Shown here: positions 8,725-37,145 of the stretch, one piece after another
Layout: each line of letters starts with the position of its first letter
Position numbering within the stretch: the first letter of the stretch is position 1
Assembly (NCBI GenBank): GCA_015227615.1
Contig: JAALGZ010000003.1
Location: forward strand, 1,364,001-1,428,000
Length of the DNA: 64,000 nt
Direction of reading: 5' to 3'
Source: Labyrinthula sp. Ha
Taxonomy: Eukaryota > Sar > Bigyra > Labyrinthulida > Labyrinthulaceae
The notes under the pieces: generated by a model
Told to the model about the DNA's origin: nothing
Databases searched by the model: none
The model's input: the letters and a program-made list of their open reading frames with translations, nothing else
Translations under genes and position numbers: made by a program

Positions 8725-11389
8725 ATGAAACGAAGTTCTCCAGGCACTTTGGAAGAGAGTGAGAATGAATGTAAATACTATTCTTAGTTCAGTTTTATAG
8801 ATGAAATGGAAGATTTTGATAATGATTTGAATAACCTAGGCCTCAAGGGTGTTGAAGGTCAAGCAGAACAGAATCAAAAGGAAGTTGTTGTAAGAGCACA
8901 GGAAGTCCGTGGACTGCTTTCAGAAGAAAAAAATTGGAAGACTTTACCTTTGAAAGCAGATCATCAAAATTATCCTCTTTGGATTTGCCCCACAGGCCAT
9001 ATTTTCTTTCAATGTGGTGCTCATACTCCAAAAGTAGAAGAACTTTCCGAAATTGAAAATTTCCTAGTGGCAATTGCTGAGCCTGTTTCTCGACCAGAGT
9101 TTATTCAACACTTTAAACTTACTCCCTATTCATTATATGCAGCAGTTTCTTTGGATTTAGATACGAATGAGATACTTGAGAAGCTTCAGATGTATAATAA
9201 GTTTGAAAATGTTCCTGAAGAAGTTCGAGATTTTGTTCAAGCGTGTGCAAATAGTTATGGAAAAGCTCGATTAGTTTTGAAAAAAAATAAATGGATAGTT
9301 GAAAGTAAAGAGAACGAAGTTATTCAAGCACTATTGAGAAATAATAAGATGAGGGATGCAAGAATATGGACAGATGAGGTAAGAGAAGAAAATAAACTAG
9401 AAGAAAAATTGTCTAAAGAAAATTTAAAGATAAAAATAAAACTACAGATGAAAGTTCATTGTTTTTCTGTTTGAGTTTAGGAAAATGAAAAACAAAAAGA
9501 AGAGTTTAAAGAAGATAAAACAGAAGCAGAATTGTTAGAGGAAGCAAAGATTAAAGTAATGAGAGACGCTTTAGCTGATAGGCTTGCTTCTGAAGTTCGT
9601 TTAGATTCAGATGGAGAAGAATCTGTTGTCTCTGATTCCGTGGAAAACGATCAGACTCAACAAAAAGGACTTTTCAAAAGAAAGAAGTATCATAAAATAG
9701 GTGAAGCAGATAAAACACATGAAGTATTTAATTTTGAAGTCAATGGTGAAATGTTAGAAATGGTAAAACAATCTGCTATACAGCAAAACCTTCCACTGAT
9801 GGAAGAATATTCCTTCTCCCAAGATAAGCGAAACTTACCTATTCCGTCATTAGTTCTTGGACCTCGTACAAAATTAAGAAGTTACCAGAATGAAGCATTA
9901 GGAAGAATGTTCGCCACAAACAGAGGTAGAAGTGGGCTTATTGTTCTTCCTTGTATTTTCCTGTACTTTTTTATCTTTTCAGGTGGAGCTGGAAAAACTT
10001 TAACAGGAATAGCTGCGAATTGTAAAATAGGTCGTTCTTGCATCGTTTTGTGTAGTTCAACAGTTGCAGTAGAACAGTGGATAAGAAGTTACTTAAGTTT
10101 TACAAATATTGACCCCCAGCATATTGTGAAGTTTACAAAAGATAGTAAACAACCTTTGAATTCAGATGGATTGAATATTCTGGTGACTACATATTTTATG
10201 ATGTCTTATTCACGTAAGAGAAGTGAAGAGTCTGGAAGGATAGTGAATCAAATTAAGGCGCAAGAGTGGGGTCTCTGTTTGTTGGATGAAGTGCATGTTG
10301 TACCTGCAAAAATGTTTCGTAGGGCTTTAATTCACGTTAAAGCACACTGTAAACTTGGATTGACTGCAACTCTTGTGCGAGAAGATGACTTAATTGACGA
10401 TTTAAATTTTTTGATAGGACCAAAGTTATATGAAGCCAATTGGAGGTCTCTTACGAACATGGGTTTTCTGGCACGAGTTATTTGTGCAGAGGTATGAGTT
10501 TTAGTTTTGATTAGCCTTAGGTTTGGTGTAAAATGACCCCTTTATTTTATAAGGAATATTTGAGAGAAAGAAACCAGAAACGAAAACAATTATTGTATGT
10601 AATGAATCCTATGAAATTCGCTTTGACAAAGTTACTCATGGAATATCATGAACAACAAAATGATAAAATATTGATATTTTCGGATAATATACCGGCTTTG
10701 AGACGATATGGACATAAATTAAAGAGATATTTTATGTATGGAGAAACACCTGAAAGAGAAAGGGAAATGCTTTTGGAAAGGTTCCGTATGCCTGCGAATT
10801 CAAAGAAAAGTATATTCTCTTGTTTCATTAACCTTCAGCTGCTAGTATGAAGAATGGATATCAGTTTAATGATAAAATGACACCAATAAATACTTTGATA
10901 ATATCTCAAGTTGGTGACGTTGCCATTGATTTACCAGAAGCAAACATAATTATTCAAATCTCAAGTCATTTTGGAAGTAGAAGACAAGAAGCTCAAAGAC
11001 TTGGACGTATTTTAAGACCAAAGTCAAACTCAAAGTTTAATGTTGGATACAATGCATTTTTTTATTCTCTTCTATCTCAAGACACAACAGAAATGTTTTA
11101 TAGTAACAAGAGACAGCAATATCTTGTGGATCAAGGTTATACTTTTCAAGTTATTAGAGATTTGCAAAAATCTTTGAGTGAGTCTGGAAAAGTTGTAGAT
11201 TTGGATTTACCAACTGAAAGAGAAGAAAGAGAACTTGTAGGGCAATTAAGTACTGCCATGTCTAGAGAAACAGAGGATTTACATCAAAATGTTGGTGATT
11301 TAGGACCAAGTTTTGCACGGCCTAAGAAATCCCAAAACGCTAAAAAACAACAAAACTCTCTGTACAGAAAAATGCGTAGAATAAAATGA
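8725..11389 (+). CDS. ERCC3: XPB/Ssl2-type TFIIH DNA helicase, six exons with tiny introns
   Basis: This is the TFIIH subunit XPB (yeast Ssl2), the ATP-driven translocase that opens DNA in transcription initiation and nucleotide excision repair. Exons as read: 8725-8770, 8801-9453, 9481-9952, 9983-10491, 10521-10809, 10839-11389. The introns are 30, 27, 30, 29 and 29 nt, all GT-AG. The exon sum is 2520 nt, giving 839 residues, close to the usual size. Seen in the protein: the N-terminal [14 protein letters not shown] and [10 protein letters not shown]; Walker A LPCGAGKT restored only after splicing; the DEVH box (LLDEVH); [11 protein letters not shown] containing the RED motif; the CAEVWC junction; and motif [15 protein letters not shown]. 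The start at 8725 adds an acidic leader before MEDFDND and was chosen because its splice keeps phase. The first two junctions are less certain because that region is poorly conserved. The gene converges on G-beta with 43 bp between stops. Confidence 0.95.
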
Positions 11390-11432
11390 TAAAATCTCAC
11401 AACCAATTTCAACTTACTCTTAACTGAACAAG

Positions 11433-12636
11433 CTAATTATCAGGCCAAAATAATTTTGTCATTAGAACTCTTTCTCTACTTTTATCTGCTAAAGCAATAC
11501 ATTTACCTTCTCGTTGTATTGCAAAAGATTCACATTCAACATTGCTTTTTTCATAAAAATCATAAGCAACTTTTCTATTAAATGTTCCTCTTGATGGTGT
11601 TTTATCTCTTCCAGAATCAAATAAATCAAAACAAACAACACGTTCTCTACCATACCTTGCAAACAACATTCTTCCAGATCTAGAAAATTCAACCTGTTCA
11701 GCACTATATCTTTCAAAACAACTTGGATTTATAAAAGTAAGTAATTTCGAAGTCATTCGAATATCATACATATGTATTTCAGAATTACTAAGTGCACAAC
11801 TAAAACTCTTTCCATCTGGAAAAAAACTGACTGAATTTACATCTCTTGAACCTGTGTCATATCTGCCTATTTGTTCATTATTTCTTACATCCCATAATCG
11901 TGCTGTAAAATCTCCTCCACCTGAAAGAAATAAATTTGTTCCATCACGACCTCCATTTGCTTTGTAGTTCGTTACAGAAAAAGCATCTGCTGTATGACCA
12001 TGTAATTGAGCACTTGCTCTAAAACCGCCATTCAAGTCAAAATAATTTAAAGGTGATTCTGCTGTAGCTACCATTAAATGACAATCATCTTGAAAATTAA
12101 CTGCATTTCCTGCTCCAGAAGTTTCCAGAGTTCGAAGAAAATCAATTTCTTTTAAACCTAGACATTATAAAAAAATAAAATGAACGTGATCCTTCTTTTG
12201 CTTTTTTAGCAAACTTATATATTTTAACTCCCTCTGTTAAATTGGAAAGAACAGTTAATTTTCCTTTGGATTGTTCTAATTTAGCATCAAGAAATAAATG
12301 CCTCATGGCGTCTTTACTTCTAATCGGTAAAAAATATTCTGGTTTGCCCTCTTTTGCATCATACACGATGACTCCTCCTTGTCCTTTAATATGAGAAGTT
12401 GCAGTAAGAAGTTGAAAATCCTTTCCCCAAGACACAAACCTTGTGTTATTAAATCGGTCCTGTTTAAAAGTCTTCCCCAGTGCAAATTTAGGTGAAGGTT
12501 CCCACCCACTGCCTGATCTTGAGTACTTTGTATTCAAAGAATCCCAAATTATATCCTTTCCCATCAATCTTTCCCTTTCATCTTCTATTGATCGGTGTAA
12601 ATTAGTTATTTGATTACGAATAGTCTCGATTTCCAT
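11433..12636 (-). CDS. Divergent heterotrimeric G-protein beta subunit (WD40 propeller)
   Basis: Exon 1 is 12636-12186 and exon 2 is 12157-11433, split by a 28 nt intron (12158-12185); together they encode 391 residues. The protein starts with a short coiled coil (ETIRNQITNLHRSIEDERERL), like the G-gamma-binding N helix of G-beta. WD40 repeats follow. Diagnostic G-beta stretches are SVSFFPDGKSFSCAL (compare INAICFFPNGNAFATG), IHMYDIRMTSKLLTF (compare CRLFDLRADQELMTY) and VEFSRSGRMLFARYG (compare VSFSKSGRLLLAGYD). The repeats are worn: only ARLWDVR keeps a clean WD, and the last blade ends in VLMTKLFWPDN. In the family, G-beta pairs with G-gamma and signals below seven-helix receptors. A more distant WD40 protein is the alternative, but the order of matches favours G-beta. 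No G-alpha gene is in the window. Confidence 0.8.
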
Positions 12637-15600
12637 TGACCTGTTTTGCTAGTGTTCTTGCTAGAGCTTCGGTGCAATTGTTTTTATGTGAACGGAACTT
12701 TCGCTGAATCAATATATTCCCGGAAATAAAGCTCACATTATGCAGTCGGCTATGGATAGTTTTACGGTGGGGACTTGAGAGGGGGTGTTGGTTAAACGAG
12801 AAATTTTGTCTTGTCTCGTATGTGTAACATTTATTTCAAGGATAGATTGCTACTGGTATAGTTATCGAGAAATGAGATTTTAATGGAAAACAATGGTTGT
12901 CTCATTAATGTACTATGTGTAAAATTGCCATTCCTAGTTCTTAGAATTTGAACAAATGTATAGATTGTTCTATTAAGAAATAGAGGAAAGCTTATTTTTA
13001 TTGCCCTTAAAAGTATTTCTTAATAATTATTGAAGATGCTTCTTAGTCTATAACTTTACCAGATAATCGACAAAAAATTCAGCTAAGGAATTTACAATTC
13101 GCTAGTTCTACATTTCCTCTCCTATAAAGAATCTTTGTAGAATTATGGTAAGGTGTTCATTTCAACCGAAGCATAGTTTGCCCGGAGATTAAGCAATCTT
13201 GCTAAACTAATGATTTATATTTCATCTAGAACTAGCCTTTTTGATAGCTTCTTTTATATCATCTTGCTCTGTTCTTGATTTGTTGGCTGTCCCTTCTATG
13301 ACCTTAGCAATGGCATGTTTTCTAGAATTGTGCTTTAATGAACTTTATAGAACCAAACAACACCTCTTAGTACATCGCAACAAACAGCACCGGATTCCTT
13401 GTCTTCACTGACGCGAAGAGCTCTTTTGGCTCAATTTCTTTCTTCCCAATATGACAAACATTCTGTTGTAACATCCTCTGTGCCACATCTCTCTTGCTAT
13501 TGATGTGCTAAGTAAAGGCATTACCTTCGTGCCGCAATGGCTCAGCCTACACTATTTTGATTTTTCATATGATTGGTTCAGATACGTTGTTTCCTTACGC
13601 ACTTTGGTGAGGTTCTTAATTTATACCAAGGCAGCTGTATATTAATCGATGAAAAAGTCCCAAATTCTTTAGTAAACCCATGAGCAAGCACAGGTCCTAA
13701 AACACCTGCGTCAAACAGTATAAAACTAAGTGGCGAAATATTCGTCTCCAATTGATGTATCTGCCAGTGTAAGCTGCTACATACTTGCGTGTTATATTTG
13801 TCTTCAATGACTCTCCGTAGTCGAGCTATCGGATCTCTTACGTTAAACGCGTAACTGCCCTGTTTCAAGTTCATCTCATTCCAAGTTTCTTTAACCAATA
13901 CCCAGAAAAACTGTTTTGGATTTTTAGGTTCATCATATCTAGCCCATCTGCTTCTGCTATTGGACTTAGCTCATTCAAATCTACTTCTTCCTTGCCTAGG
14001 TGCGGACAAGAGAAAACATTTTAACCTAGTTTCACCAGGGGAACATATATCACACATCTAAATTGTGCCATATCTTTGCTTTGAGCCAATGCACCTTCGT
14101 TTCTTTGAATTTCCTTCTCGGTAAACTAATACTATAGTATGTTCATTATTCTCTATTTTCATAACTGCTCTAAGTTATTTAAAATCTTTCTTCTTGTAAA
14201 ACTGGCAAAAATTTCTCTTTTTCTGGCCATACTTGAAATGTGTCAATATCAAGGTCCTAGTACCTTTTAATCGATTACTTATTGAGAATTAACAGAGTAT
14301 TTATGCTAAGTTACTTCATCTTTTTCCATGGAACTATCCTCACTTCTTCTGATTTTGTCCATCTACCTACTCCAAGATGCATTGTCCCCTCTCCTAAGAA
14401 CATGTTTTCTACTAGTCACTGGCAGCCTTTCTCTATCTGATTACGGTTGAATTATTTAGAAGTAACTTTTTCAATAATATATTGTTTTTCGAAGTATCCA
14501 TATGATTAAGTTAAATAAGATTTGCGTAAATCTTTGATTTCGTCTGGTGGATGTAAGCATACGCCTTCAAATATCTTATCAACATGTTGGACAACATAGA
14601 CACCTTCATAAAGTTCGGCACATCTTTGGTTGGTACTTCCGCATTAACGCAAATTTCAAATCTTTTATTACTTATGGAAAATATATTTAGATAAGATTTG
14701 ACATCCTTTTCTTCGACTGTGTTAAGTTATGCTCTCTTCATCCAGACTAAAATACCTCAAAGACGTAAATTACTTCACCGCTAAGAGTGGTGTAAATCAT
14801 CGTAATAACTCCGTATGATTCAGCCGAAGTTAGTTTCTCTATGAACATTTCGCATGACGGTTTTGCCATACTAGTTAACACCCATTCTCCATTCCTGAAG
14901 TTAGCCATTACTTATGGAATATTTTTGCTGTTATTTTAATTTTTTAGAGTTGGATCTCACTTTAAAATCCCATATATATCATCTACCGTCTTTTCTTCCA
15001 CAGCTGTAAAATTCTTCCCGCATATGACAGTATGATCTTAGAATCTTATTTCCTTGAAATCTGAAATTACAAAAAACGAAATGTCGTAAGCTCTTCCCTT
15101 TAAGAAAAGGCAGTATATAATATCCGATGAGTTTTGCCTGAGAGTCGCTTATATTATGCATTGCAAGCCAATAATAGTCAGTCATGTCCAATTCATAACA
15201 TCTGTATTTTGAGTAAAATTTCTTCCACATTTGCTTTATGTTTCTAAACTTTTTAATTCTACGGTGCTGCTCCACCACGATACATGTAAATGTTTTTTTT
15301 TTTAATATATCATGACTGAAGTTAGTTGATCCATTAATCTTTTCATAAGAAATGGTATGTATTGACTATTTAAGCAATATACTTATCTTAGAACAAATGT
15401 TCTATAAAGTTTCAAAGAAGTCACTGAGATTATCTTCTTATCTGTATCCTTCACGAGAAGTTTCTATGCGGCATTGGTGAAAATGAGAATATGGCCAGTG
15501 AGGTTTATGTTTTACTAGTCCCCCCACGAGTTATCTTGTTGTAGCCATTGTCATTGGTGTGATGCCCAGTGGCTTCTACTATAATCACGGTCTTATTTAA

Positions 15601-18600
15601 ACACGAGAAAAAAAAATCCAACCTCAACTTTTTCATGAGAATATTCACAGTGCGCTCCTCGTTGTTCTCTAAATAAAACGGTTCCTTATTTTCCACGCCT
15701 TCCTTTATTCCCGTATATCTACTCTTGAGATTACTCAGAAGGACTAATTTCCTTACTAGATTCTATGACACCCATATTTCCCCTTACTTTTCTTTAACTA
15801 CTTGAGATCCATCTGCACCTTGAACTGCACTAGTAAGATTTTTCCCCTGAAAATATATTGAATGTCTCTATACAACATGGATTCAAGAAGGATTGTCTAT
15901 TATTAATGAAAAAGTTCTCAACATCTTTCTGAAACAAATGGAGTCTCATGTTCACACCATAGAATCTTGCAACATAGTAATATGTGTATTTTTCTGTTCA
16001 GAAACGAGTACAATGAGTATAGTTATCCCTTTGCTATATGTTCCTATGCATTGTATTACGCATCAGGTGAAGATATTCTCTTTTGCAATATTCAACTGAA
16101 ATGACCGGTGGTAAGCTTTCTAATTTAAATGTTCTTGGAAAAGTTATCTGCTTTGGTAATCTATCTGCAGAAGTATAAAAAATTTTCAACAGTCAAAACC
16201 ATAACCAAGTTTTGATGGTTCATGAGAGCCCAAATATCATTTGAATGTATATCTTTACCAAAACAAAATTTCTTGTATAGAAATATAATGCTCGTTAGAT
16301 TCAAAATTTTAATATGAGAATGAGGCTAGTTCATTTGAAGTATGCGTAAATGCTTGTATGATATGTGTGTATACCATACTTTCCGTCAACAGTTTTTAAT
16401 AGAAACTTGCGTGATGATTATAGCCCAAGAATATAACATAAATTAAAAAACTATTTTGTTTTTCTTGATATCTTATCTGGTAAGGCAAACCATCTTGAAC
16501 TGGTAAGATATCTTATTTTTTCTATACCTCGCTTAGGGCATAATCTCACAGCATGGCTGTTTCCCTCTTTCACCACATTTTAGGTGTGGGTATGTGCTTA
16601 ACCCACAAAACAAACTATTGAACAGGATATTTATTGAACACTAGGATAACAAAAACCCAGATTTGGATTAATTCTGCATACTCACAAGCTAATACAGAAA
16701 TCGTGGCTCTTTTAATGTGTTTACAGTCTTTTATATTTTACTTCCACTCTTTCTCTAAGATACATACCCACAATATTATACCTTATCTATTAACATAATA
16801 CAGTTCTTTATGTTTCAGAATATGTTCAACCCCATCAAGTATTACCAAATTTTGCTTAGCACTGTGCAAAAATATTCCATATATGTATTCTACAATATGG
16901 TTTACAAGACACACTATTTAATCCCAGTTTTAGGCACGCAAGAGCAGGTAATTAGCACCAGTAACACCTTATTTCTAAAAAGTCTTGGGGTATTTAATCC
17001 TAGGATTGCTTTGTTCTACACTTGATTGCGGATGATTTTGAAAGTTTCACTAGAGAACCCTTGTTCACAGATACTCGAATAGTTTATGACTAGAACTGCT
17101 TCTCTGTTTCAATACCTTTTTGCTCTACATTTCTTTTTTTTTTGAACGGACATTCAAAAGAAAAAGTTACATACCGAATTTTTACACCATAAGGTTATCA
17201 ACAATGCTAATCTACTGATATCTGCACTCATCGAGCTCCATTTCAAACATGACTTCTATGAAAATGGAGTTTTCTCATTTTCCTTAATCTGCATCATAAT
17301 AGAATACCTCGTTTGAGAAAATTAAATACATTCCTCCCTCTTTATCAGACAAAGTAGTTAAGTTTTTTTGCCAAATCTTTTTTTTTGATTTACCAAAGAA
17401 GTGATGGTTACAATATATTTTCTGATGAATAAAAGGAAAATATTTTCGTTGGATACGATTATTACTGCTGAGTTGGCAATCTTTCTTACTTAAAGCGAAA
17501 AATAATCCATGCTCTCTAATTAATTTTTACTGAAAGATATCCATTGCTTTTCTATTAAAGACCAGTTGACTCTTGATGATCGAGACATTATATTGTTTTC
17601 TGTCGCCCTTTCAGAATCAAATTCGCCCAACATCGGTTGTTCTTGTAAAACATGATCCGATATCTCACCATGTCTGCCTATTATAGCTCCTCATATGATA
17701 GAACTGGCTCAAAGTAGCTGATTAATGAGAGCTTTTCTTACAGTCTTCATAGTCCCGTATTACCTGCCTTGATACATAAGTACAACAATGATTTTACCTG
17801 TTACCATAATAGGAAATGTCACCTTATTCTTTAAAATAATGAACTCAGTTTTCTGGATGCCGTAAAGTTTCAAAGTAAAAAGCCTAATGGAATGTCACAA
17901 TACTTAGGTAACTTAATTGTTGATCTAGTCTTTCCTTTCCCGTCAACTTCATCGAAACTTACATCTAATTGCACCAATATTAGCGTAACCTGTACACTGT
18001 TTAACTTACTCGTACTCATCCCACAAGGCTTCGAATATAGACTGGGTCAAACCGTATGTAAAAATATAAAGCACTCTGATGAAGATTTCTTGCCAATTGG
18101 TAAATTAATTTTAAATCATCCTACAATCACTGTTCTGTAGAGGCTTAATATCCTACTTGCCTAGTCTCATCTGACTTTTACCTCCATATTCGTAGCCCTG
18201 TTCAGAGTTTCTGTTATTCCTATAGAAAATTTTCCTATTCTGAAATTATTCTTTAACTGTTCCTAATCTCACATGATCAGATTTAAATATACTGTTGCAT
18301 TGGGTAGGTCAGAACTCTTTCTGGTTTAAATCTATTTGAAACTGGTATAAACTAAGTGTGCCTTTATTTGAGGTCAAACTAAATAATGACTATTTCAGCC
18401 ACAATAATAGTACGCTTTATATCTAGCTTTGAGTTTAATCTCATTAACCGTTCTTAGAAGCTGTTATAAGGTCAATATATGTTGTCTGCAAAAATTATCG
18501 GTAATAAGGAAGCCTAAAATGTTATAGCTATATTTTCAACATGCTTGAAGCTGGCTCAATATAGATATGAAAAGGTCCGAATATTTAAGATTTCGAGAAG

Positions 18601-21404
18601 AATAATAATATCACTTAGCCGTGCCAATCAACTTTCGCTTGGCCACAAACCTATACCTAACCTTATCATACTGAATCTCAACCTTCGATATCTTGAGTTT
18701 AACTTCAGTTTTATATTGTTATATCGCCAACCCGGTTTTTAAAGAGAGCAGTGTGAAATATTTCTACTAACACCAAATTATATACATAATGCACAAAATA
18801 GAAGGTTCACAGTACTTGAACCATACCTATTTTACTTATGCTATGTAGGGATGAGACATATCTCCTGATAGACAAAGAAAGTGCTGTGGATTGAAAAACT
18901 AAGCGGCCAACTAGCAATTAAGTTTGTGTTCTAGTACAAAAAATTATATCACCCCCGCCCACATTTTCGTGATTTAACATTTTCTACATTTTGATAGGTT
19001 GTACTATTTTAATATATCTAATTAAAGGGCAACATAAGAAGATATTAGTATACAAAATTATGGGATGAAAAAGTTCACTTAAATTGTTGACAATAAGAAG
19101 TTAGTTAATAAACGTTGTTTCGAGGCAACTTTTTCTACAATTTGCATAAATTTTATACAATGAGTTCACAGTAGACAAAGGTTTAGAATAATTCTTAGAT
19201 GAAACCTTTCTAGTTTTAGTATTAATATGTATCCCTTTCCATGTAGTATACTAATATGTATAGACTCTGAGCTGCATTCTATGCCCACCTAGATCTTGGA
19301 TCAATCTTAAAATTTAAATATGAGTCTGTAACAAGTAATCTAAGTAATCAAATTACTCTATCAAAATATTGTTATCTCGATAGAATCGCTCGATAGCCAA
19401 ATTTAGTATAACAGAAGGTGTTAATACGATGCAGATGTTAAGGGTTTCTCTGTGTCATAGAATTATCCACAAGAATGAAGTAAACTCACTAAATAGATAC
19501 CTGTAATATGCGTTTCACTGAGATCCAGCTCGCTAAAAAGATTATGTAAACTCCAAGATTCATTCCAGTGGCAATTTATAAATTTTAAATGCAAGGTCAA
19601 ATACTATTGATAAATATTTACCTCTTTGGGAAATAAGTAATTAAGAGCTTATATTTCTTTTTGTAGAGTTTTATTTACAAGTTAAAAAAGTAATTATAAC
19701 TACCTACTACTCAGCGTAATTCATTCCGAGGTAAACTGCTGTGTTTTGCAATAAATATACCTTTTGCAGTCTAAATTGTTGCAGAAAAAGCAAATCTCCT
19801 TGAGAAACATGTTCCTCCAACCACGGGCACCATTCTATCAAGTACGTCTTTTTTAAAATAAACATATTATTATAATGTTTAAAAATTTGAGTATGTTTAA
19901 ATGGTAAAATAAATAGAGTAACGACTGGCATCGATATTTATTGGTTACCTCATTGGAATACCTTTTTGTACGGTGACCTTAATGTATTCGTGGTTTTCTA
20001 GGTTACCCCGTAGTATTGGTTAGTACTCTGCAGGTAGCATATAATACGATAGGTAAAAATAACAAGAGTAATGCTTATATAGCTGTCTCTCTAGGTAATG
20101 ACATCAATACAACAGAAAAAAATCTCAACTGCTTCAAATATAAGTCCTCGAGTTTTCTATAAGTTAAAACTAAGCAGATTTATAAGTAAGTAAATATATA
20201 ATAGTAAACTAATATTTTTTTAAGGCTTTGGGACATTATTAATTGACTATAGTTAACAAAACCTAAGTCTAAGAGAGTGGAGGGCATTTCAACTAACAGT
20301 CTAGAAGACACATCTAAAATAAACTTAAAAGCTAATTGTGGTGCTTAGAGTAATATAAAATAAATCAATTAGATTAAAAATGTAAAGTTAACAGGCTAAT
20401 AAACTAATTGACTAGATATTCTATGGATTTATTCAGTGAATTAGATAATCTATAGATTTCGAAGTCTCAACAGGAGCTGAGAAATTGCCCTTTCAAATAG
20501 AGTGATTCCTAAGGGGGTAGCTTCCAGAATAAATCATCAAAAATATTATCTTTGATTATTAAATTTAAAATCATCATATTATTTGTATAATCATATAATT
20601 GTTTTGTTCTCTGAGTTCTTACTGGTGACAACTTAGTTGAGAGCTTGCGCTTTGAGACCTAGTTGCAAACAGTAGAAATATCACAGTGTGACATTACTGT
20701 AGTCTCTTATACAATGAAAAGATTTAAAATGCAAGCATGTTTCACCCAAACTTTGTGAATGGTCTTCCGCGTTGATCGCTTAATTAATCCTAAACCCACA
20801 CCTAGTAATCTAATTTGGTACGGGAAAAAATAATTATCATTAAAGTTTAAAGTGTATAGGCTGAACACAGTGCCAGGATACAAGGTACCACGTTTAACAC
20901 TGAGCTTCCAATCTTAACATAATGGTTACAAACAAAGGAAACAAAAACGATGAATATAACCAACCCACTTATTTTTTTTTATTTAGGAATACGAAATTTT
21001 TTTTTGGATTTTGTATTTTCAATGCCTTGCTTTCCAATTGTTTTAGAGTAAGAGGAGCTTTTTAGAGGAAGGGGCTGGAGTTGATTCTGGTCCAAGGCGA
21101 CACCTTTCTTTAATGGGTTTAGGGGAATAAAGAGATTAAGCACCTACTGTGTATTCTATGAAAAAAAGGTTATTGATCCAAAACACGTTAGAGCCTGGAA
21201 ACACTTTGTAGTTGGGTAATCAGCCGCTCCACTAAGGTTTCTACAGTACTGTTGAAAATACACCACACATAGACTTAAGAAGTTATATTTCAAAGAAAAA
21301 TTGGTACTGCATTCTCTTGAAAGTGCAACTATCGTACTTCACTTCTACCAGTATTTCGTTTTTTCTTTGCTATTTGCCGCCTATATATTAATTCATAACA
21401 AGTA
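12637..21404. other. 8.8 kb gene desert
   Basis: No intact gene is recognisable here. A decayed coding relict occupies about 13.2-15.7 kb on the minus strand and is listed separately. From 15.7 to 21.4 kb I see only short chance-length open frames (60-82 codons) and AT-rich sequence, with no RNA gene, tandem repeat or transposase motif that I can name. Confidence 0.4.
13200..15720 (-). pseudogene. Decayed protein-coding relict, family not identified
   Basis: The minus strand holds several neighbouring protein-like frames without a continuous gene. The best is around 13578-13960, where YDEPKNPKQFFWVLVKETW leads into RDPIARLRRVIEDKY. Another is at 14979-15278, with KQMWKKFYSKYRCYELDMTD and KLIGYYILPFLKGKSLRHF. 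A third is at 15505-15720, with VNILMKKLRLDFF and TVIIVEATGHH. Several such frames in the same orientation over 2.5 kb are more than expected by chance, so I read this as one old inactivated element or gene. I do not recognise a reverse transcriptase, integrase, transposase or polymerase signature. Its nature is therefore open, and it should be treated as a fossil. Confidence 0.35.
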
Positions 21405-24224: not shown

Positions 24225-24314
24225 CGACCGGTGTTAATGACAGGGCAGAAAAACAAGACTGCCGTTAAGGTGGTCAAATCAGCCAGACATAGATTTTAAA
24301 CGGAAAAGATAAAA
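24225..24314. promoter_or_regulatory. 90 bp bidirectional promoter region
   Basis: Only 90 bases separate the divergent start codons of the RRM/repeat protein (minus) and CBL (plus). Both transcripts must start within or very close to this interval, so it is inferred to be a shared promoter. I see no clear TATA box. Confidence 0.5.
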
Positions 24315-25049
24315 ATGGGCCAGAGACAAACAAGTCGATTGGGTGTTGAACCAATGACAATGGCGTCATTAAACGATCTGTGTACAAGAACTCATTGTAT
24401 ATTTATTTGTTTACCTGTTTATTTCCATAGTTGACGCTGATGAAGTGCTTAGATTGTATCATTACTTCATTGAACTTTCAAATGGGAGCAAATTGATAAC
24501 CAAAGAGTATCTTTATTTTTATGTCCTGTAATATTCAGCCAGTTTAAAGCTGCACTGAGGCTTCAGAATTCTTTGTTTCTTCATAGAATATTCGTTCTGT
24601 TTGATAAGAAAGTATACCTTTGTTAAGAGGTTATAAATCTTAGGGTATTCAAGCAATGGAGTTTCCTGAATTTGTGGAAAGTTTATCAGTATTATCTGCC
24701 AGAGGAACTTTAGATGAAAAGATTCGCTTTGCGTTTAAAATGTATGACTTAGATAACGATGGTTATATATCAAAACAGGAGTTAGGGTATTTTTTAACTC
24801 TAGTGTTAACTCCATAGTGACATGCTCCAATCTGGTTTAGCTGAAAGTAGAGTTTTGGCAACTCATGAATATATTTCAATGATAGTTGAAACAAGCTTTA
24901 GAGAAGCAGATTTGAATGCGGATGGATATATTGATCAAAATGAGTATAAAGTATTGATGGAAAAGAACCCTACGATGCTAGACAACTTCACTTTAGACTT
25001 AAAGATGGTTCTCGGCTACAACTCATACCCTGAGCAATTCAAAACTTAA
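24315..25049 (+). CDS. CBL-type (calcineurin B-like) EF-hand calcium sensor, five exons
   Basis: Exons as read: 24315-24396, 24431-24506, 24539-24611, 24644-24786 and 24818-25049. The introns are 34, 32, 32 and 31 nt, all GT-AG. The sum is 606 nt, giving 201 residues, the normal CBL length. The protein starts MGQRQTSR, a likely N-myristoylation signal. [14 protein letters not shown] and TKDQFKAAL match the first helices of CBL/calcineurin B. EF-hand 2 is degenerate (DKKGIQAMEF). EF-hands 3 ([12 protein letters not shown]) and 4 ([12 protein letters not shown]) are canonical calcium loops. [11 protein letters not shown] near the end corresponds to the plant CBL segment KNPSLLKNMTL, which favours CBL over true calcineurin B. 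Such sensors recruit SnRK3/CIPK kinases to membranes. The last 11 bases overlap the 3' end of the DEAD-box gene on the other strand. Confidence 0.9.
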
Positions 25050-26487: not shown

Positions 26488-26532
26488 TTTACACTTGTAA
26501 ATCAAATGTTGCAATCTGCTACGAAAAAACAA

Positions 26533-29500: not shown

Positions 29501-30670
29501 ATGCTATCAAAGAGTTAACGATGAATTACATGAAGTGTCTAGGGCCCCTCAGATCAAGAAGGGAAGAGCCTGAATCTGTATGTAAGTACTACTAAATAAA
29601 TTTAGTTATTCAATATAGTTTTTTCGTCAAGAAGTAGGAAAAAAATATTCCTTACAAATTGGTGTAATTTAAGGGCGAATATCATAACAAATGCAGCCTC
29701 TTAAAGTTGTACATACAGAATAAATAACATTTTTTAGTTTCAGAAAATTAGCTCTGGAACAAAGGCTTTGAACTCTAGTGTATTTTTCTTAAATTTTAAT
29801 ATCGCTATTATCTTTTCCTGGTAGTGACTGCTCGTACATAATCTCTTTAGCTCAAGTTTTTTTAGACAGAATGGTTATTGGCGGCTTTAAAATAACTTTG
29901 AAATCACTAATGAAAAAATTATTAAGCTCCAGATACACAAATTCCACAGAAGTTTCTAATATAAATTCATAGGTCAACTCCATTAAATTCCTGTCACTTC
30001 TTCAGCCTTTACCCTGATTCAAAATTGAGAATTATTGAGAAACCCAGCGGGAAATGAGGCAGCAGATTCATTGAGGATCCATTTAATTACCCAATCCTTT
30101 CACGCATTAATTTGCCTACTAGGCCACACGGAGTTAGTTTGAAACTGGCATCCATTGGATTTAGAAGCGTCATTTACAAATACAGTTTTAGATTTTGGAA
30201 GCAGATTTTATTCTCGTCATAACAGAAAAATGAAATCATCAATCAAATTTTTTCTTGTGACTCCCAGATCTGGTGGCCAATTTTAAATTTGGTTCTACCT
30301 TGTTTCTTAATAGATCAAATGAAATTACTCTTGGAGCATCCTCAAAAAATGTACTAAGAAAACACCAGGTTTCAATTATTTTCAAGAGTTCTCGATGCTT
30401 CAAAAATTCATTTTTCTGAAAATTAAAGTTAAAGTTTTTCCACCGTGAGTTTCTTTCAAACCATAGCCTTACTCAAATGCCTATCTTTGCGCTTTCTTGG
30501 GATGCTGAAGCAACATATGAAATTAGAGTTTGCTTTGGCAAAATCACTTTCTACACCTTCTATGGCATCTTGCTCCATATGACAAAGATTAATGTTATTC
30601 GACCAAGGAGCACTCAAATGCCTAGCTTAAGAATGCAAGAAGAGAAATTTAACCTTATTGCTAAACAACT
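26533..30670. other. Gene-poor stretch between Dbp3 and Skp1
   Basis: No gene is recognised. A 127-codon hydrophilic Lys/Glu/Thr-rich frame lies on the minus strand at 27707-28090, opposite an 78-codon frame on the plus strand. Its length is borderline for chance at this composition and it has no recognisable domain. Slightly higher G+C around 27.5-29.2 kb could mark an old insertion, but I see no terminal repeats or enzyme motifs. Confidence 0.4.
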
Positions 30671-31313
30671 TTACAAATCTTCGCACCATTTGTTCTCTTC
30701 ACGAATCTTAGCTTCTTCTTCCGGGGTGAAGTCATTCTTGATATTAAACAATGATCTAATCTCCTCTGGACTTTTCCCTTTAATCATACTTGCAACTTTA
30801 GCGCAACTCAAATCCAAAAGGGATTTTACGTCCAAATAATTTGCAGCAGTGATAAGCTTGAACAAACTCTCTTGTTCAATATTAATATATTTCCCATACC
30901 ATTCACCTGCTATTATTCCAATATTGGTATCTCTCAATGGTTTTTCTATCTCATTCATCTTATTTTTTTCGTTCTGGTCCCAAAATTCGATCACCTTTCT
31001 AAGAGTTTCGGTATCCACATTTTCCAAAGGTACTTCAGCAGGATCATCCTCAGTAGAGTCCATGATACTGTCTTCAATAAGGTTTCGGATAAGTTTGCTC
31101 TGCTTAACGAGTTTGAATTGAACAACTTCTTTCGTTCCCTCGCTTGATAATAAATGAACAAGTTCTACAAAATAAGGAAGAGACTAAGAATGCTAACAAA
31201 ACTTTTTTAAAATGAGAATTAAACTTTATATACTGTCATCATATTTGTTTTCATCAGTGATGGCACCTATAGGGTTAAAAAGGAAGGTAAATCATACCGT
31301 TTTGCGTAGACAT
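30671..31313 (-). CDS. SKP1: Skp1, SCF ubiquitin ligase adaptor
   Basis: Skp1 links F-box proteins to cullin in SCF ubiquitin ligases. The main exon (31164-30671) encodes LLSSEGTKEVVQF (compare LQSSDGEIFEV), AEVPLENV, the loop up to YINIEQESLFKLITAANYLD, then SLLDLSCAKVASMIKGKSPE and FNIKNDFTPEEE, ending NKWCEDL. These are the BTB/POZ fold and the F-box-binding C-terminal helices. The frame lacks an ATG, so a 5' part must be spliced on. The best reading is exon 1 at 31313-31298 (MSTQN), a 31 nt intron, exon 2 at 31266-31234, then a 69 nt intron, giving 180 residues. The 69 nt intron is twice the local norm, so the start is provisional. The identity is secure. The gene is divergent from ATG7. 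Confidence 0.88.
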
Positions 31314-31452
31314 TTTTTCTTATTTATTCTCTTCTTTGAGGAAAACTCTTTCTGTTTTAGGTTTTCATTGGTTGATCTGTCCAATCACATCGCTATAGTT
31401 GACAATTATGATTGCATGAACTATCCAATGAAAAAGCGAAAGACAAAGAGAG
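31314..31452. promoter_or_regulatory. 139 bp bidirectional promoter region of Skp1 and ATG7
   Basis: The provisional Skp1 start (31313, minus) and the ATG7 start (31453, plus) are 139 bases apart, so both promoters must lie in or near this interval. This is inferred from spacing; no motif was identified with confidence. It would shift if the Skp1 first exon is different. Confidence 0.35.
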
Positions 31453-33402
31453 ATGATATTTTCTCCCTTTGAAAGTTCAACTACTGCTAGTTTCTGGGAA
31501 CGATTGGGAGCAGAAAAACTAACAAAAATTAAGCTTAGTGAAGAATGTGTTAATATAAATGGAAATTTCTCTCTCCCATTTAATGCAAATCACAGCTTGC
31601 TACTTAATCTTGACGAAAATGCATTTGACAAGATTGAAAAAATATCCAGGGAAAAAGTCGATGCAGAAAGCGTAAAACAGATGTTTATGGAGTTTGTATT
31701 TGATTTTAAGATTATCTGCAGTGGTTTTTTGTTTAATAAAAATACGGTTGAAGGATTTAAACAAGAAGACAAGAAATCGCTACTACGCAAATTTGCTGTA
31801 AAATTGAACAACGTGGATTCTATAACAAATTTTGTCTTGCTGAGCTTTGCAGACTTAAAGACGCATAAATATATTTACTGGTTTGGTTTTCCAATGTCGT
31901 CTAATCCGGATCTCTCTTTTGAACTTGTAGAAACAAGCAGTCTTTCACAAGCGTATTCAGAAGAACAACTTTTCTTGCTCTTCGAAAAGTTGCTAGATTT
32001 TCAAAATAGCTCATCTGAAACTGAATTTAATTTTTCAGTTGTTGATGTTGGAGAAAAGTGCAATTTCTTTTCCTTAAGCTCAAGATCTGAAGAATTTACT
32101 CAAATAAAAGCTGAAAGTGTAACTTTCTTGTTTATCGATCCCTGTTTTGATGAAAAAAAAGAAAGTGTGCTTTTAAACAACTTTTTGTTTTATATATCAA
32201 TAAATTTTCCTTCTTTATTAAATATAAAAATACTGAAACTTCGCAAAAACCTTTCAAGTAGCAAAATTCTTACTGTTCATATAAAGAAAGAAAGTTCTTT
32301 TATACACGCAAATTCTTCAGTTGTTGGATGGGAATTGAATATGAAGGGTAGACCTGGTCCTAGAATAATGAATCTTAGTGCACATCTAGATCCTTCTTCT
32401 ATAGCTGAAAGCGCATTAGATCTAAACCTAAAATTAATGGTTTGGAGGCAGTTTCCAGATTTAGATCTAACTCGGATTAAACAAACTAGATGCTTACTCT
32501 TAGGAGCAGGAACTTTAGGTTGTGCTGTTTCCAGAGTTTTACTTGCATGGGGATTTAAGCATATAGACTTTTTAGACAACGGGTTAGTTTCTGCTTCTAA
32601 TCCAGCACGACAAAGTCTATACCTACTATCTGATGTAAATAAAAAGAAATGTTTCACTGCTGCAGAAACATTAAAAGAAATTATGCCGAGGCTGGAAAGT
32701 GAAGGGTATGATATGACCATTCCCATGCCAGGTCACTACTTTGAATACAAAGGTGATGAAGCTCTTTTTAGTTCTGACGTATATGAGCTATACAAACTCA
32801 TAAAGCATCATGAAGTTATTTTCCTTCTCACAGATACAAGAGAATCACGGTGGTTACCAACTGTGTTAGGTAGAGTGTTGAATAAGACTGTTATTAATTG
32901 TGCTTTAGGATTTGATTCCTTTTTAGTGATGAGACATGGAAACAAAGATGTCGAAGCTGGCTGCTACTTTTGTAACGATGTGGTTGCTCCACAAAATTCT
33001 ACTAGTAACAGAACTTTGGATCAACAGTGTACAGTGACTAAACCAGGCTTAGCACCAATTACAGCAGGACTGGCGGTGGAGGTCTTGGTAGCGCAACTTC
33101 ATGGAAATGAGGTCCCTGATCAAATAAGAGGTTTCTTATCAGATTTTAAACAGATTGAAATGAAGAATCATAGGTTTAAGAATTGCAGTGCTTGTTCGCA
33201 GCCTGTATTGAAATTGGCTGAATCATCCATCGACGCTTATGCTCGAATTGGTGAACACGATGGAGTACGACTTCCACTTGAGTTCGTGGAAATTTTTAAA
33301 AATGAGGCGACGTTAGAAGAAATTTCGGGTCTTGCTAAAGTCAAAGCTGAAGCAGAGCAGCAAGTAGTGGATTTTGACTTTGGTGAGGAAGATGATTTTT
33401 AG
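31453..33402 (+). CDS. ATG7: ATG7, E1-like activating enzyme of autophagy
   Basis: ATG7 adenylates ATG8 and ATG12, forms a thioester with them and passes them to the E2 enzymes ATG3 and ATG10. The uninterrupted 649-residue protein starts MIFSPFESS, aligned with the family N terminus (FAPFSS). The N-terminal domain has VLLSFADLKTHKYIYWFGFP. The conserved linker is VVGWELNMKGRPGPRIMNL, followed by DLNLKLMVWRQFPDLDL. The adenylation domain has GAGTLGC (351-357) and TDTRESRWLP. The catalytic cysteine is C526 in RTLDQQCTVTKPG. Zinc-ligand pairs CYFC (504-507) and CSAC are present. The protein ends with an acidic Phe-rich tail (VVDFDFGEEDDF), where the family has ATG8-binding residues. No intron is seen. 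It is followed 25 bp later by a same-strand gene. Confidence 0.96.
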   Translation: MIFSPFESSTTASFWERLGAEKLTKIKLSEECVNINGNFSLPFNANHSLLLNLDENAFDKIEKISREKVDAESVKQMFMEFVFDFKIICSGFLFNKNTVEGFKQEDKKSLLRKFAVKLNNVDSITNFVLLSFADLKTHKYIYWFGFPMSSNPDLSFELVETSSLSQAYSEEQLFLLFEKLLDFQNSSSETEFNFSVVDVGEKCNFFSLSSRSEEFTQIKAESVTFLFIDPCFDEKKESVLLNNFLFYISINFPSLLNIKILKLRKNLSSSKILTVHIKKESSFIHANSSVVGWELNMKGRPGPRIMNLSAHLDPSSIAESALDLNLKLMVWRQFPDLDLTRIKQTRCLLLGAGTLGCAVSRVLLAWGFKHIDFLDNGLVSASNPARQSLYLLSDVNKKKCFTAAETLKEIMPRLESEGYDMTIPMPGHYFEYKGDEALFSSDVYELYKLIKHHEVIFLLTDTRESRWLPTVLGRVLNKTVINCALGFDSFLVMRHGNKDVEAGCYFCNDVVAPQNSTSNRTLDQQCTVTKPGLAPITAGLAVEVLVAQLHGNEVPDQIRGFLSDFKQIEMKNHRFKNCSACSQPVLKLAESSIDAYARIGEHDGVRLPLEFVEIFKNEATLEEISGLAKVKAEAEQQVVDFDFGEEDDF

Positions 33403-33427
33403 TTTAGCCGTTTGCACTGGTTAAGGT

Positions 33428-34297
33428 ATGACTCTTCAAAACTCCATTGTATCGAACAGTGAAGGTTCAGGTCTCTTGGAAACACTTCTTTCGTCCAGCT
33501 ATAACCAGAGAGGTGATGAAGCTTCAGGTGGTAAGATCCTAAAATTTTGCTATGTCTTGGAAGAATATATACAAAAGTGTGAATTGGATGGTGAGTATGA
33601 GGAAGCAGAGAAGGCTTATGAACAACTTATATCCATTAAGAAGCAGGAATGCAAGCGTCAGGTAGAAGAATTACGGTTGAAACAGACAATGGAGAGGCAA
33701 AACTTGGTTGCTCAGCAAAGAATTCAGGTCGAAAAGTTTTATAATACTTGGAGACAGTATTTGACCTCCTTTAATGAGTTAGCAAAGCAATATGTAGAAC
33801 AGCTAAAGGCGAAACATAGTGAAGAAAAAAATACAATAAAACAGAAGGATGCGGCAAACATGTCTAGAAGACAGACTATGGAGTGTAGAATATTTAAACC
33901 TTCGAAGAACCTGCTTGAATGGAGGAGAAGGCAAAACTTACTAGCTAAATGTAAGAATTATGCAGAAGCTCAAAAGGTGAAGCTGATAGCAGATAAGATA
34001 GAAGAACAAGAACGCGGCAGATCAAAAAACATATGGAAAGATTCGGCTTCAAATCAAGAAAGATCACTAATCTTAAGACAGAAGAACGAGATGGAGGTTC
34101 TCAAGAAAAAGATAAATACCAGAAGAAAGGAACACCAAGCGCAAAGGGACAAAGATGCGGCTATTTTGTCTCAAAGGAATAGAAATCTTATGAGCTCACT
34201 ATCACAGAAGCATAAAATTGAGGTAAGAAACCATGAGTCAACTATTTACTCGCAATTATGCTTAGATAGAAAGCCTGGGAGAAGTCCGAAAAGATAA
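33428..34297 (+). CDS. Conserved-looking coiled-coil protein, function unknown
   Basis: This 289-residue frame is predicted almost entirely alpha-helical. After a polar N terminus come LEEYIQKCELDGEYEEAEK, then Lys/Glu/Gln-rich helices (VEELRLKQTMERQNLVAQQ). A characteristic middle segment, RIFKPSKNLLEWRRRQNLL with KCKNYAEAQKVKLIADKIE, is followed by more coiled coil (KNEMEVLKKKINTRRKEHQ). The EYEEAEKA and NYAEAQK segments are two helical motifs of the kind found in widespread uncharacterised protist coiled-coil proteins. I cannot name a function; a cytoskeletal or flagellar role is only a guess. The start lies 25 bp after the ATG7 stop, so either the pair is co-transcribed or the transcription start lies inside ATG7. 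The end faces the glycosyltransferase at 35 bp. Confidence 0.8.
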   Translation: MTLQNSIVSNSEGSGLLETLLSSSYNQRGDEASGGKILKFCYVLEEYIQKCELDGEYEEAEKAYEQLISIKKQECKRQVEELRLKQTMERQNLVAQQRIQVEKFYNTWRQYLTSFNELAKQYVEQLKAKHSEEKNTIKQKDAANMSRRQTMECRIFKPSKNLLEWRRRQNLLAKCKNYAEAQKVKLIADKIEEQERGRSKNIWKDSASNQERSLILRQKNEMEVLKKKINTRRKEHQAQRDKDAAILSQRNRNLMSSLSQKHKIEVRNHESTIYSQLCLDRKPGRSPKR

Positions 34298-34332
34298 ATT
34301 ATTCATCTTCGTGTATGACTGAAATATAATCC

Positions 34333-35934
34333 TTATCCCTTGGAGGTCTGTTTGACTTCTCTTATATTATAGTGCTTATCCTGCTCGTCTCGATACACCT
34401 CACCCCAAAGATTATCATAAACTCTTTTTCTATATACTATTTTTTCTGAAAAGGGATCTTCATAAGGGGATTGGTCCTCTATAGGACGATCTATATCTTT
34501 GTGTGTAAACAATCCCTCCGTTTGGGCAATTATAAAACACTTTTCATCCCACAGAAATGGACTTAAATTTAACCCACTTTCGATTGTCGTCGTCCAATCG
34601 TCGTATCCCACATGATCAGCAACATTTTCCTATACATTAGAACTTACCTCAAATACCTTTAGCCATGAAGTCTTGGCTAGAAAAGGGTTATTAGACCATC
34701 CAGCGTGTGTTGAGAATGTACTAGAAATAAGGGTATAAGACATTAGATTACCAGTATCCAGTTTCTCCGCAGGGCCACAAGAGGTTTTCATTAGCATACT
34801 TCTCTACCGGGTGCTTTAACCTAGGATTCACAAAAAGCTAAAACCTGTACCAATGTGTTGTTTCAAGTAATGAATGATTGGAAATATAAGGAGTCTTTCT
34901 CTCAAGAAGTTGATCTTCATTTCCCTATGATAACTCTAGAAACTATTAATACTTTCCATACGGAAGGATAGAAAGGTTCTCCCGGAGCATTTCGACTACG
35001 AAGTTTTACAACGTCGGCATCCAACCCACTAACAAGTTCAACTGCTTCACTTATACGTTCAAGAGATGTTTCTATGACTTCATTGTCAATATAAAAATCT
35101 TCTTCAACAAAGAGTACGAGATCACTAGTTGCAAATTCGACTAAGACTTCAAAAGCAGGAGCAATACCAACATTCTCTGAAGAAGCAAAGAGACTCATTT
35201 TTTCAAAGGAAATATTTGTTAATCTTTCATCTTCAATCTCTCCGGGCTCAAATCTCCTGATTTCTACATCCCTGTTCTTCCGAAATTTCACTTCTTGAAT
35301 AAATACAAAAATCTCAGAGGCCCTATCAAGTATACCAGAGTGCTTAAGGGAATTATAAGTGTTCTGAAACGATGCTTTTCCTCGGTGAACAAGTATCATC
35401 AGCGTCATTGTAACTTCACTCGTATCTCCCATGAAATCGCAATCAATACATTCTTGCTCTTTCCGCACACACTCTTTTGGATCAGAATTAGGATCAAAGT
35501 ACACTTCTGGAGGTTGAAACAATACACTCTGAAACTCAACAAAATCTTCAAGTGGGTAATCCAGCACCGGAAAATTCCCGTACTTCTCATATCTCTTAAT
35601 CTTTTCTGGTAATGTTGTGGCATTCATTTCTCTGGCTTGCTGTTCTGTCTTTGAGAACGCCGCAATCTTATGTCTTCCATAAGGTACCTTCTTCATTGTC
35701 ATCTCACTCATCGTTTCAGTACTAAAGCAACCTATGAATAAATCTTAAGTAAAATCAATAACCAAGCTCCACTGGATCAAAATACACAGAGTACAACACT
35801 AAGCATGTATAAGTGTCCACGGATATTCTCAAAGGCATCATTCTTCCTGGTTGATATGTATAGTTCTCCGGTGAATGAAAAACAAACTTTGACAACACTG
35901 TTGTCGTAACGAAAAAAATCAACAAAATCCTCAT
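34333..35934 (-). CDS. Secretory-pathway glycosyltransferase-like protein (GT-A, GT13-like), six exons
   Basis: Exons as read: 35934-35763, 35731-34953, 34924-34845, 34820-34752, 34720-34657 and 34629-34333. The introns are 31, 28, 24, 31 and 27 nt. The sum is 1461 nt, giving 486 residues. The N terminus MRILLIFFVTTTVLSKFVF is a signal peptide or anchor, so the enzyme should act in the ER or Golgi lumen. The core is a GT-A fold: TLMILVHRGKASFQNTYNSL as the nucleotide-sugar half, NVGIAPAFEVLVEFATSDLV, then VLFVEEDFYID with the metal-binding EED at about 267-269, like the EDD of N-acetylglucosaminyltransferase I. The later YCTFSTHAGWSNNPFL and AQTEGLFTHKDID resemble acceptor-side segments. The sugar and acceptor cannot be stated. 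Reading only the open frames would give two broken pieces. It lies 64 bp downstream of the EGF-7TM gene. Confidence 0.8.
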
Positions 35935-35998
35935 CTTCTTTTTAACGGTTAGATTTAAGAGTTAACACAAACGGCTAGGAAAGAATACATCAAGGTTT

Positions 35999-37145
35999 CT
36001 AGAAATATGTTGACAAACTTTGATTTGGATTAGCTGCTGAAGATTGAAGAGCTCTATCAAAGTAAAGTAAAATATCCTTGATAGCAAGAAGACCTGTAAG
36101 ATCTCTTGCCATTTGCCAAGGAATAAGAAACAGCTGAATACCCCCAGGTTTTGGAAACAACATTTTTGCAAGAAATAAAGGCCATTCATCAAATAGAAAA
36201 ATTGCTGCCATGGGAATGGATTGAATTAACAAAATAGTAACAGAAAAGGTAAGTCTAACAAAGCATTGTTTCACTAGATCTGCTTGTCGTAGAAGTTCTC
36301 GGTCATTAACGTTTGCAAGCCGATCTGTCAAAACTTTTCTACCACTATAAAGGTAGCCTGCAAGAATAACATATGTAAAAGGAACAACAAGAGCTATCGA
36401 ATATGGATTTCCTGATATGTAAATAGTTGTAAAAAGGGTTACAGGTATCAAAAACTGGAAAACTCGCACTAATTTTATTCGAAAGGCAAAGTAGGAACGC
36501 AGATCACTACTCAGGCTGCTTGCAGTCCCTAAATATAACCATGACATTGCCAACTGAAGGTTAGTTGTTACGTAAAGTATAGCCCAAGCGGCTAAAAGAT
36601 AGTTCATGGGAACCTCAAGGGCAAGATATTTACCATCCTTGTCAAAGAGCACGTCATGGGGCTTGAACAACATTGATATATAGATTGCGTTGGTTGCCAG
36701 AAGAAATGCAGCTACAAGAAAACAAAGATAAAGAGTTTGGGTTTTTAGAAGAAACATGTTTTTCTTGTAAACCTTGAAATTGAAAGAACTGATAAAAGTT
36801 TGCCCACGTGTTTGTTTACGGCTTCTTAATGGCTTTGTTGCTCTGTTGCGATTGCTGTCATTCCCAAGTGTTTCTAGAATGCTCCTTAGAGATATGAAAA
36901 TGTAAAACAGACAGAGGAAAATAACTGAAGAGCAGAGAATAAGTACAGCAATTGATCCTGGTCCTCTTTCATCGCAATTATCTCCAGTCCAACCAAAACT
37001 AAAGACTAATAAATGAAGGAGATTACTATCTGTGGCAGGTACATGCACTGTGGTTAGTGTTCTCCGCAAACCATAAGTTTTGATAACAAAATAGATTTCC
37101 TTCACAGTCAAAGTCATCTTGACATGGTTGCGAGAAGTTCAACAT
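35999..37145 (-). CDS. Seven-helix membrane protein with an N-terminal EGF-like module
   Basis: Exon 1 is 37145-37027 and exon 2 is 36998-35999, joined over a 28 nt GT-AG intron; together they encode 372 residues. The open frame running up to an ATG at 37117 is the wrong phase for the N terminus. The spliced N terminus is cysteine-rich: C8, C14, C20, C35, C37 and C48, ending CTCHRYFGWTGDNC, the classic YxGxxGxxC end of an EGF-like domain. Hydrophobic segments follow at about 55-77, 128-150, 171-193, 217-236, 239-257, 285-308 and 325-346, with a basic loop after the first (RNRATKPLRSRKQ). This fits an extracellular EGF module on a seven-helix body, possibly a receptor. I do not recognise the helix bundle as a named receptor family. 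No signal peptide is visible, so an extra upstream exon is possible. Confidence 0.72.

Follow-up and report, generated by a model that had tools for sequence, protein, structure and literature searches.

The window considered here, that is the whole stretch of 64,000 nucleotides (nt) that was analysed (G000:C77:1364001-1428000), belongs to an assembly of 50.84 Mb in 153 contigs and carries several protein-coding genes interrupted by ultra-short introns of about 30 nt. These introns, and the spliceosome that likely removes them, are the subject of the present analysis. An initial annotation had claimed 17 such introns, and reading frames were laid out for each of the genes it named. Fifteen introns hold at the length first given, one had a wrong length and one is unsupported; for four of the fifteen (XPB introns 1 and 2 and those of the G-beta-like and seven-transmembrane (7TM) genes), the evidence consists of frame or motif reading. 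The most informative gene encodes XPB, the TFIIH helicase (8725-11389, + strand, six exons). Removal of five introns of 30, 27, 30, 29 and 29 nt, all exactly where they had been placed according to the frame layout, yields a single frame of 839 amino acids with the XPB motifs. Intron 1 (8771-8800, + strand, 30 nt) is defined by the frame, as is intron 2 (9454-9480, + strand, 27 nt), which has a GTTC donor and takes out an in-frame TGA; profile testing is uninformative for both. Intron 3 (9953-9982, + strand, 30 nt, divisible by three and stop-free) and intron 4 (10492-10520, + strand, 29 nt) are supported by the frame, by the gap-free alignment of a solved XPB chain (8bvw) with the spliced model over both junctions, by the annotated protein P0001 and by a free-deletion test (see below), which picks 30 and 29 nt, respectively. 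Frame and P0001 also support intron 5 (10810-10838, + strand, 29 nt); the profile favours a larger deletion there, probably owing to an adjoining lineage-specific insert.

In the calcineurin-B-like EF-hand gene, previously labelled 'CBL' (24315-25049, + strand), removal of introns of 34, 32, 32 and 31 nt (24397-24430, 24507-24538, 24612-24643 and 24787-24817, all + strand) restores the frame and its motifs, and the spliced model aligns gap-free with a calcineurin B chain across all four junctions. Frame and motif are likewise restored by removing a 28-nt intron from a G-beta-like WD40 gene (12158-12185, - strand) and another of 28 nt from a 7TM/EGF-like gene (36999-37026, - strand), where it joins the EGF-like frames ...CTCHR and GWTGDNC...; the latter gene had no match in a Pfam search. 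The glycosyltransferase-like gene, with eight remote homologs but no Pfam match and no matching EukProt model, was scored by profile. Of the series 31, 28, 24, 31 and 27 nt first proposed for it, all but the third are the best GT-AG choices. Introns 1 (35732-35762, - strand, 31 nt) and 2 (34925-34952, - strand, 28 nt) are supported by frame and profile. Intron 4 (34721-34751, - strand, 31 nt) ranks top among the GT-AG options, while a 13-nt deletion without GT-AG ends scores higher (249.0 versus 242.8), and intron 5 (34630-34656, - strand, 27 nt) exceeds an 18-nt alternative (224.8 versus 218.5). The third is better read as 30 nt (34821-34850, - strand; 280.1) than as 24 nt (272.5). The 31-nt intron proposed for Skp1 (31267-31297, - strand) is not supported by frame reading, since the exon after joining soon runs into a stop; the Skp1 domain itself is clear, and removal of a 41-nt alternative leads into it.

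The class extends outside the window. Among chaperonin exon matches found genome-wide, eight of the ten gaps between neighbours measure 14-34 nt, the remaining two being 130 nt and 233 nt, the latter containing an unmatched exon. Six of nine chaperonin loci were taken: five CCT genes contain 17 short introns and an HSP60-type gene (L036, G000:C132:1415501-1417500) has an intron of 127 nt. Other CCT junctions, like the sixth intron of CCT-beta (30 nt, stop-free), were initially placed by visual comparison with human CCT sequences. For kinesins, 30 matches were found and 14 loci taken, five for profile building and nine for examination; 13 short introns occur in eight of these nine, five having been reassigned on visual inspection of the frames. 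Top calls of a greedy script of 66 nt (L046), 124 nt (L051) and 62 nt (L054) were replaced by eye with 28 + 32 + 30 nt, with 31 nt followed by a 31-codon insert, and with 29 nt, respectively. Left out of the count were the long introns of 127 nt (L036) and, probably, 76 nt (L048, a kinesin locus with an ambiguous reading), the weak or ambiguous candidates of 57 and 72 nt (L047), 45 nt (L049) and 25 nt (L051, gain 17.0 bits, 25 or 31 nt being possible), and the uncertain first intron of L038. All 30 introns retained outside the window, which come from two gene families (13 genes, nine other contigs), measure 28-32 nt, and so do the 25 left when the five re-read by eye are dropped. The ultra-short class is thus consistent, as first claimed, but not exclusive, because the 127-nt and the probable 76-nt introns exist. 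Nor are introns present in every gene: all 14 proteasome-domain matches lie in one stop-free frame, although some are partial and a stop-free intron divisible by three would escape notice.

Together, the curated set comprises 46 introns in 18 genes (16 in the window and 30 outside), with lengths of 27-34 nt (mean 29.7, standard deviation 1.5), of which 13 are divisible by three. All 46 have GT-AG ends; these guided the curation, though they emerged unprompted in seven of 11 free-deletion tests. Acceptors are TAG in 42 cases, CAG in three and AAG in one, and donors GTAT in 20, GTAA in 11 and another GTNN in 15. The donor is otherwise loosely defined, with G at -1 in 27 introns, A at +3 in 37, T or A at +4 in 21 and 14, and T at +6 in 29. 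At +5 the composition is A 17, C 3, G 7 and T 19, with G at background; positions +4 to +8 are close to the composition of the interior, which is 53% T. Near the acceptor, an A stands at -9 in 22 introns and at -8 in 28, against 10.4 expected, and at one or the other position in 37 of 46, against 18.3 expected from composition. A TRA motif with its A at -11 to -6 is found in 25 of 46, whereas 5,000 shuffles gave a mean of 10.1 and a maximum of 19. Judged by these counts, the A lying 7-8 nt before the last base is a putative branch site, which would imply a donor-to-branch distance of ~22 nt and a branch-to-AG distance of ~6 nt; comparably short branch-to-AG distances are described for some yeasts (PMC2483917). 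The statement that such introns leave little room for a branch site was therefore half right: a branch-like A is present but squeezed against the acceptor, with hardly any tract behind it.

That these segments are chance GT-AG strings or assembly indels that are never spliced could draw on the 13 lengths divisible by three and on XPB intron 3, which is open throughout and translatable in principle. This was confronted with a free-deletion test, in which 0-90 nt were deleted at every nearby position and scored against an ortholog profile, GT and AG not being demanded. In seven of the 11 introns of CCT-alpha and XPB so covered, the top-scoring length is the curated one and exactly one of the tied placements is GT-AG. 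Independent annotation agrees. The EukProt protein P0121 is 100% identical to the spliced CCT-alpha model over 552/552 residues (six introns of 30, 28, 31, 32, 29 and 28 nt), and its tag, QI:420/1/1/1/1/1/7/59/552, presumably means, by the MAKER field order, seven exons with every splice site confirmed by transcripts. P0001 corresponds to residues 260-839 of the spliced XPB model, so that introns 3-5 are spliced there as claimed, while introns 1 and 2 lack its support because it begins after intron 2. Nine of the segments (six in CCT-alpha and three in XPB) are thus left out of annotated proteins. Since, in addition, donor, acceptor and branch positions are coherent over 18 genes, an artefact is very improbable, and the introns exceed chance expectation. 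A home-made gene finder without homology was run in three versions, the counts of which are not used as evidence: the first returned 11 GT-AG introns of 20-40 nt versus 3-6 for five decoy end pairs, which is no more than a hint; the second gave 53 introns of 24-34 nt versus 49-69 in four permuted controls, i.e. no difference; the third, also for 24-34 nt, gave two for GTA/TAG, none for GTA/CAG and 0-1 for decoys, numbers too small to judge. Spacing histograms of motif pairs over 264 kb showed no peak, a procedure without power in the absence of gene context.

The splicing machinery was searched for the small nuclear RNAs (snRNAs) U1, U2, U4 and U6, a U2AF65-like protein and METTL16, while U5, SF1, U2AF35, SPF45, Smu1 and RED lay outside the search. 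In human cells, activation on short introns depends on Smu1 and RED (PMC6692369). U1, U2 and U4 genes occur in three copies each. The U1 copy read has a canonical 5′ end (AUACUUACCU) and keeps the C that pairs with a +5 G, and U2 has the canonical GUAGUA (GTGTAGTATC). The U2AF65-like protein contains RRM1-2 and a UHM, its best matches being solved U2AF65 chains, and the top solved-structure match of METTL16 is U6 snRNA (adenine-43-N6)-methyltransferase, with the NPPF motif present. With U6 also found, the proposal of a highly streamlined machinery is not supported for the components surveyed, and the presence of U1 and of a U2AF65-like protein speaks against a reduced spliceosome of microsporidian or mikrocytid type. 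The U1, U4 and U2 genes are clustered (C96:199999-200439, 204926-205119, 218093-218286 and 222774-223214; C135:72400-72840 and 77284-77477), with two clusters in inverted order on C96 and one on C135; a U3 small nucleolar RNA adjoins one of these copies (L039:2330-2485). Within the window, a 939-codon open frame (21405-24224, - strand) without Pfam match shows by eye an RRM-like start and an RS/YS-rich end, and is possibly a splicing-related SR protein.

Two alternatives concern the kind of machinery involved. Minor (U12-type) introns or a non-spliceosomal removal have nothing but shortness in their favour; all 46 introns are GT-AG with weak donors, none starts by eye with GTATCCTT, the U12 donor consensus, and the major snRNAs are present (U11, U12, U4atac and U6atac were outside the search), which makes this scarcely credible. 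A bypass of U2AF65, in which an SPF45/RBM17-like UHM protein holds SF3B1, is less remote, although unlikely. The ~6 nt between the putative branch A and the AG are too few for a U2AF65 site, an additional UHM-region match lies at C77:1964066-1964296, and human short introns with truncated pyrimidine tracts use SPF45 in place of U2AF65 (PMC8363638). Yet a U2AF65-like protein with RRM1-2 and UHM has been kept here, and the T-rich body upstream of the branch region could bind it.

The one departure from convention was found in U6. A single exact U6 core is present in the assembly (C46:223545-223653), in which AUAGAGA replaces the ACAGAGA box of the Rfam consensus, and it is in this narrow sense that the machinery deserves the adjective 'unusual' given to it initially. 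A search for U6 cores with two mismatches returned nine other sites, against five for a reversed control pattern; two of the nine, L042 and L043, were tested as a second U6 and rejected by the covariance model. L043 (G000:C13:1173596) shows a weak likeness to the U6 core and stem-loop, by chance or as a decayed copy. The AUAGAGA gene looks functional, since it ends in a T run and all four departures of its U6 from the Rfam consensus in the predicted U4/U6 stem II are matched in U4 (L039 copy). When a 40-nt piece of U6 is cofolded in silico with U4 nt 1-70, 14 stem II and seven stem I pairs are predicted. Because U4 complements it, the divergent U6 is very likely the working copy, as judged from predicted pairing. 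The base that has changed normally pairs with a G at intron position +5. With U in its place, Watson–Crick pairing is available to 17 of the 46 donors (24 including G-U wobble), whereas C would pair with seven. The change also breaks the METTL16 target motif, UACAGAGAA (PMC8163875).

It is highly probable that the 27-34-nt GT-AG segments are ordinary U2-type introns of a labyrinthulomycete-like stramenopile that have shrunk nearly to the minimum and are likely excised by a major spliceosome with U1, U2, U4 and an AUAGAGA U6. In such a scheme, U1 with its canonical 5′ end would make the initial contact at (A)AG/GUA, and the 5′ splice site would then be handed to U6, whose U, standing where C is usual, would accept A by regular pairing and G by wobble at +5 and so loosen the demand for +5 G. 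U2 would use its GUAGUA to pick out the A lying ~7-8 nt ahead of the final G; the next AG would be taken almost immediately, and the uridine-rich body upstream would do the work of a pyrimidine tract downstream. Lengths would then vary so little because ~22 nt from donor to branch is the least that the complex can accommodate. The U6 change fits a relaxed +5 requirement; that it caused the relaxation, or that either caused the shortness, is unproven.

Several observations weigh against this reading or parts of it. Introns of 127 nt and probably 76 nt also occur, and the splicing machine is therefore not limited to 30 nt. In four of the 11 free-deletion tests (CCT-alpha 3; XPB 1, 2 and 5), a different length was best, these four introns lying in unconserved sequence or adjoining an insert, and transcript support for splicing comes from annotation tags only. 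As to the machinery, the U1 score (66.2 bits) falls below the gathering score (69.5), the U2AF65-like protein reaches 249.6 bits versus a full-length-family cut-off of 310.3, and the one U6 gene comes from a family search in which 48 of the 6155 first-look candidates were scored. Finally, A at +5 is only mildly enriched (17/46, one-sided p 0.0185, with no correction for the positions tested), T being the most frequent base there, so that U6 pairing with +5 explains the loss of G better than it does any new rule; and the C-to-U change, being one base in one assembly, may possibly be a consensus error.

The introns may be real and ultra-short while the U6 change is unrelated to them, either neutral or an assembly error, with +5 G lost through AT drift, a view given a chance only just short of even. 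The base composition agrees with it (G+C of 35% in the 264 kb sampled, introns rich in T, positions +4 to +8 near interior composition), as does the retention in U1 of the C pairing with +5 G. The Bigelowiella natans nucleomorph, with introns of 18-21 nt and no donor motif, has kept ACAGAGA (PMC6461891), and short introns therefore do not require a U6 change. Against it stands the slight enrichment of +5 A, together with the 100% conservation of the ACAGA box in 240 species, 230 of them Saccharomycotina yeasts (PMC10581693), which makes a fully neutral change unlikely. The opposite, bolder proposal is that replacement of the invariant C of ACAGAGA, the +5 reader, was accompanied by co-adaptation of the whole spliceosome: +5 G would no longer be selected, U4 would have followed U6, METTL16 would act on UAUAGAGAA instead of UACAGAGAA or have lost its target, and introns would have collapsed to a quantum of 28-32 nt, compact enough for donor, branch point and acceptor to be recognized together as one. 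It is put forward tentatively, as somewhat more apt to fail than to hold; if true, it would involve the second natural change of the ACAGA box known to the authors and the first at the base reading +5.

As far as it goes, phylogeny indicates that the host is a labyrinthulomycete or close kin. The query groups with Mucochytrium quahogii and Hondaea in the XPB tree (50 of the 120 rows listed; group of 12 rows) and with Mucochytrium and Hondaea in the CCT-alpha tree (32 of the 120 rows listed; group of 10 rows), with Shimodaira–Hasegawa-like approximate likelihood ratio test (SH-aLRT) values of 100 and 99, respectively. Both relatives are Labyrinthulomycetes, and the query branches are long. Rhizaria, considered owing to the introns of mikrocytids, were rejected: rhizarian polyubiquitin carries an insertion, whereas the polyubiquitin units here repeat every 228 nt with no inserted residue, and the trees are also contrary. 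Elsewhere in the window, ATG7 (31453-33402, + strand; ATG7_N and ThiF domains) is an uninterrupted 649-codon frame amid intron-bearing neighbours, two protein kinase genes (45724-47463 and 61320-62756, + strand) are single open frames that are mutually similar by eye, and a stretch of ~8.7 kb (12700-21400), with gene-bearing stretches on either side, contains no complete listed open frame of at least 110 codons.

Ultra-short introns are of a known kind, whereas their present host and the U6 change look new. Blastocystis, a stramenopile of another lineage, has short introns of similar size (~30 nt). The ciliates Paramecium and Nyctotherus (~25 bp; PMC5014332) likewise have one narrow class in the nuclear genome of a free-standing protist, but the host here is a stramenopile, the mode is longer (28-31 nt), introns are not in every gene and the U6 box is changed (ciliate U6 was not compared); heterotrich ciliates reach 15-16 nt, as cited in PMC10245619. 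Chlorarachniophyte nucleomorphs (18-21 nt; PMC6461891) share miniature introns, a weak donor and a conserved U1 5′ end, but are reduced endosymbiont nuclei whose U6 retains ACAGAGA. Mikrocytids (16-17 nt; PMC10245619) resemble the present case in extreme shortness and narrow range; however, their intron sequences are highly conserved and their spliceosome is strongly reduced, with 17-19 proteins and U2, U4 and U6, but not U1, among the parts identified, whereas here U1, U2, U4, U6 and a U2AF65-like protein are present and the intron sequences are loose. The closest parallel for U6 is Cyanidioschyzon merolae, the ACUGA of which is likewise a natural substitution in the ACAGA box matching the donor preference (PMC8163875, PMC10581693). 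In that alga it is the central A, opposite +4, that differs; 27 introns are left, and METTL16 and N6-methyladenosine (m6A) are lost. Here the C opposite +5 differs, METTL16 is kept and the number of introns is larger (46 in the 18 genes examined). Among the matches listed, the open-access literature contained nothing on labyrinthulomycetes with ultra-short introns or an altered U6 box, and no paper combining AUAGAGA with U6 snRNA, subscription papers being outside the search; in the available text of two labyrinthulomycete genome papers (PMC10101102, PMC6050695), the word 'intron' is absent.

Ultra-short introns probe the minimum of RNA that a spliceosome needs, and several known cases are tied to unusual nuclei (nucleomorphs, ciliates) or to strongly reduced machinery (mikrocytids). 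Here, near-minimal introns reside in a 50.8-Mb genome together with U1, U2, U4, U6, a U2AF65-like protein and METTL16, and shortness therefore need not entail the loss of these parts. Moreover, AUAGAGA in a U6 predicted to pair with its U4 amounts to a natural experiment on the +5-reading base, reported as invariant in the 240, mostly yeast, species cited above, and opens to direct test the question of which of the two RNAs, U6 or U1, imposes +5 G.

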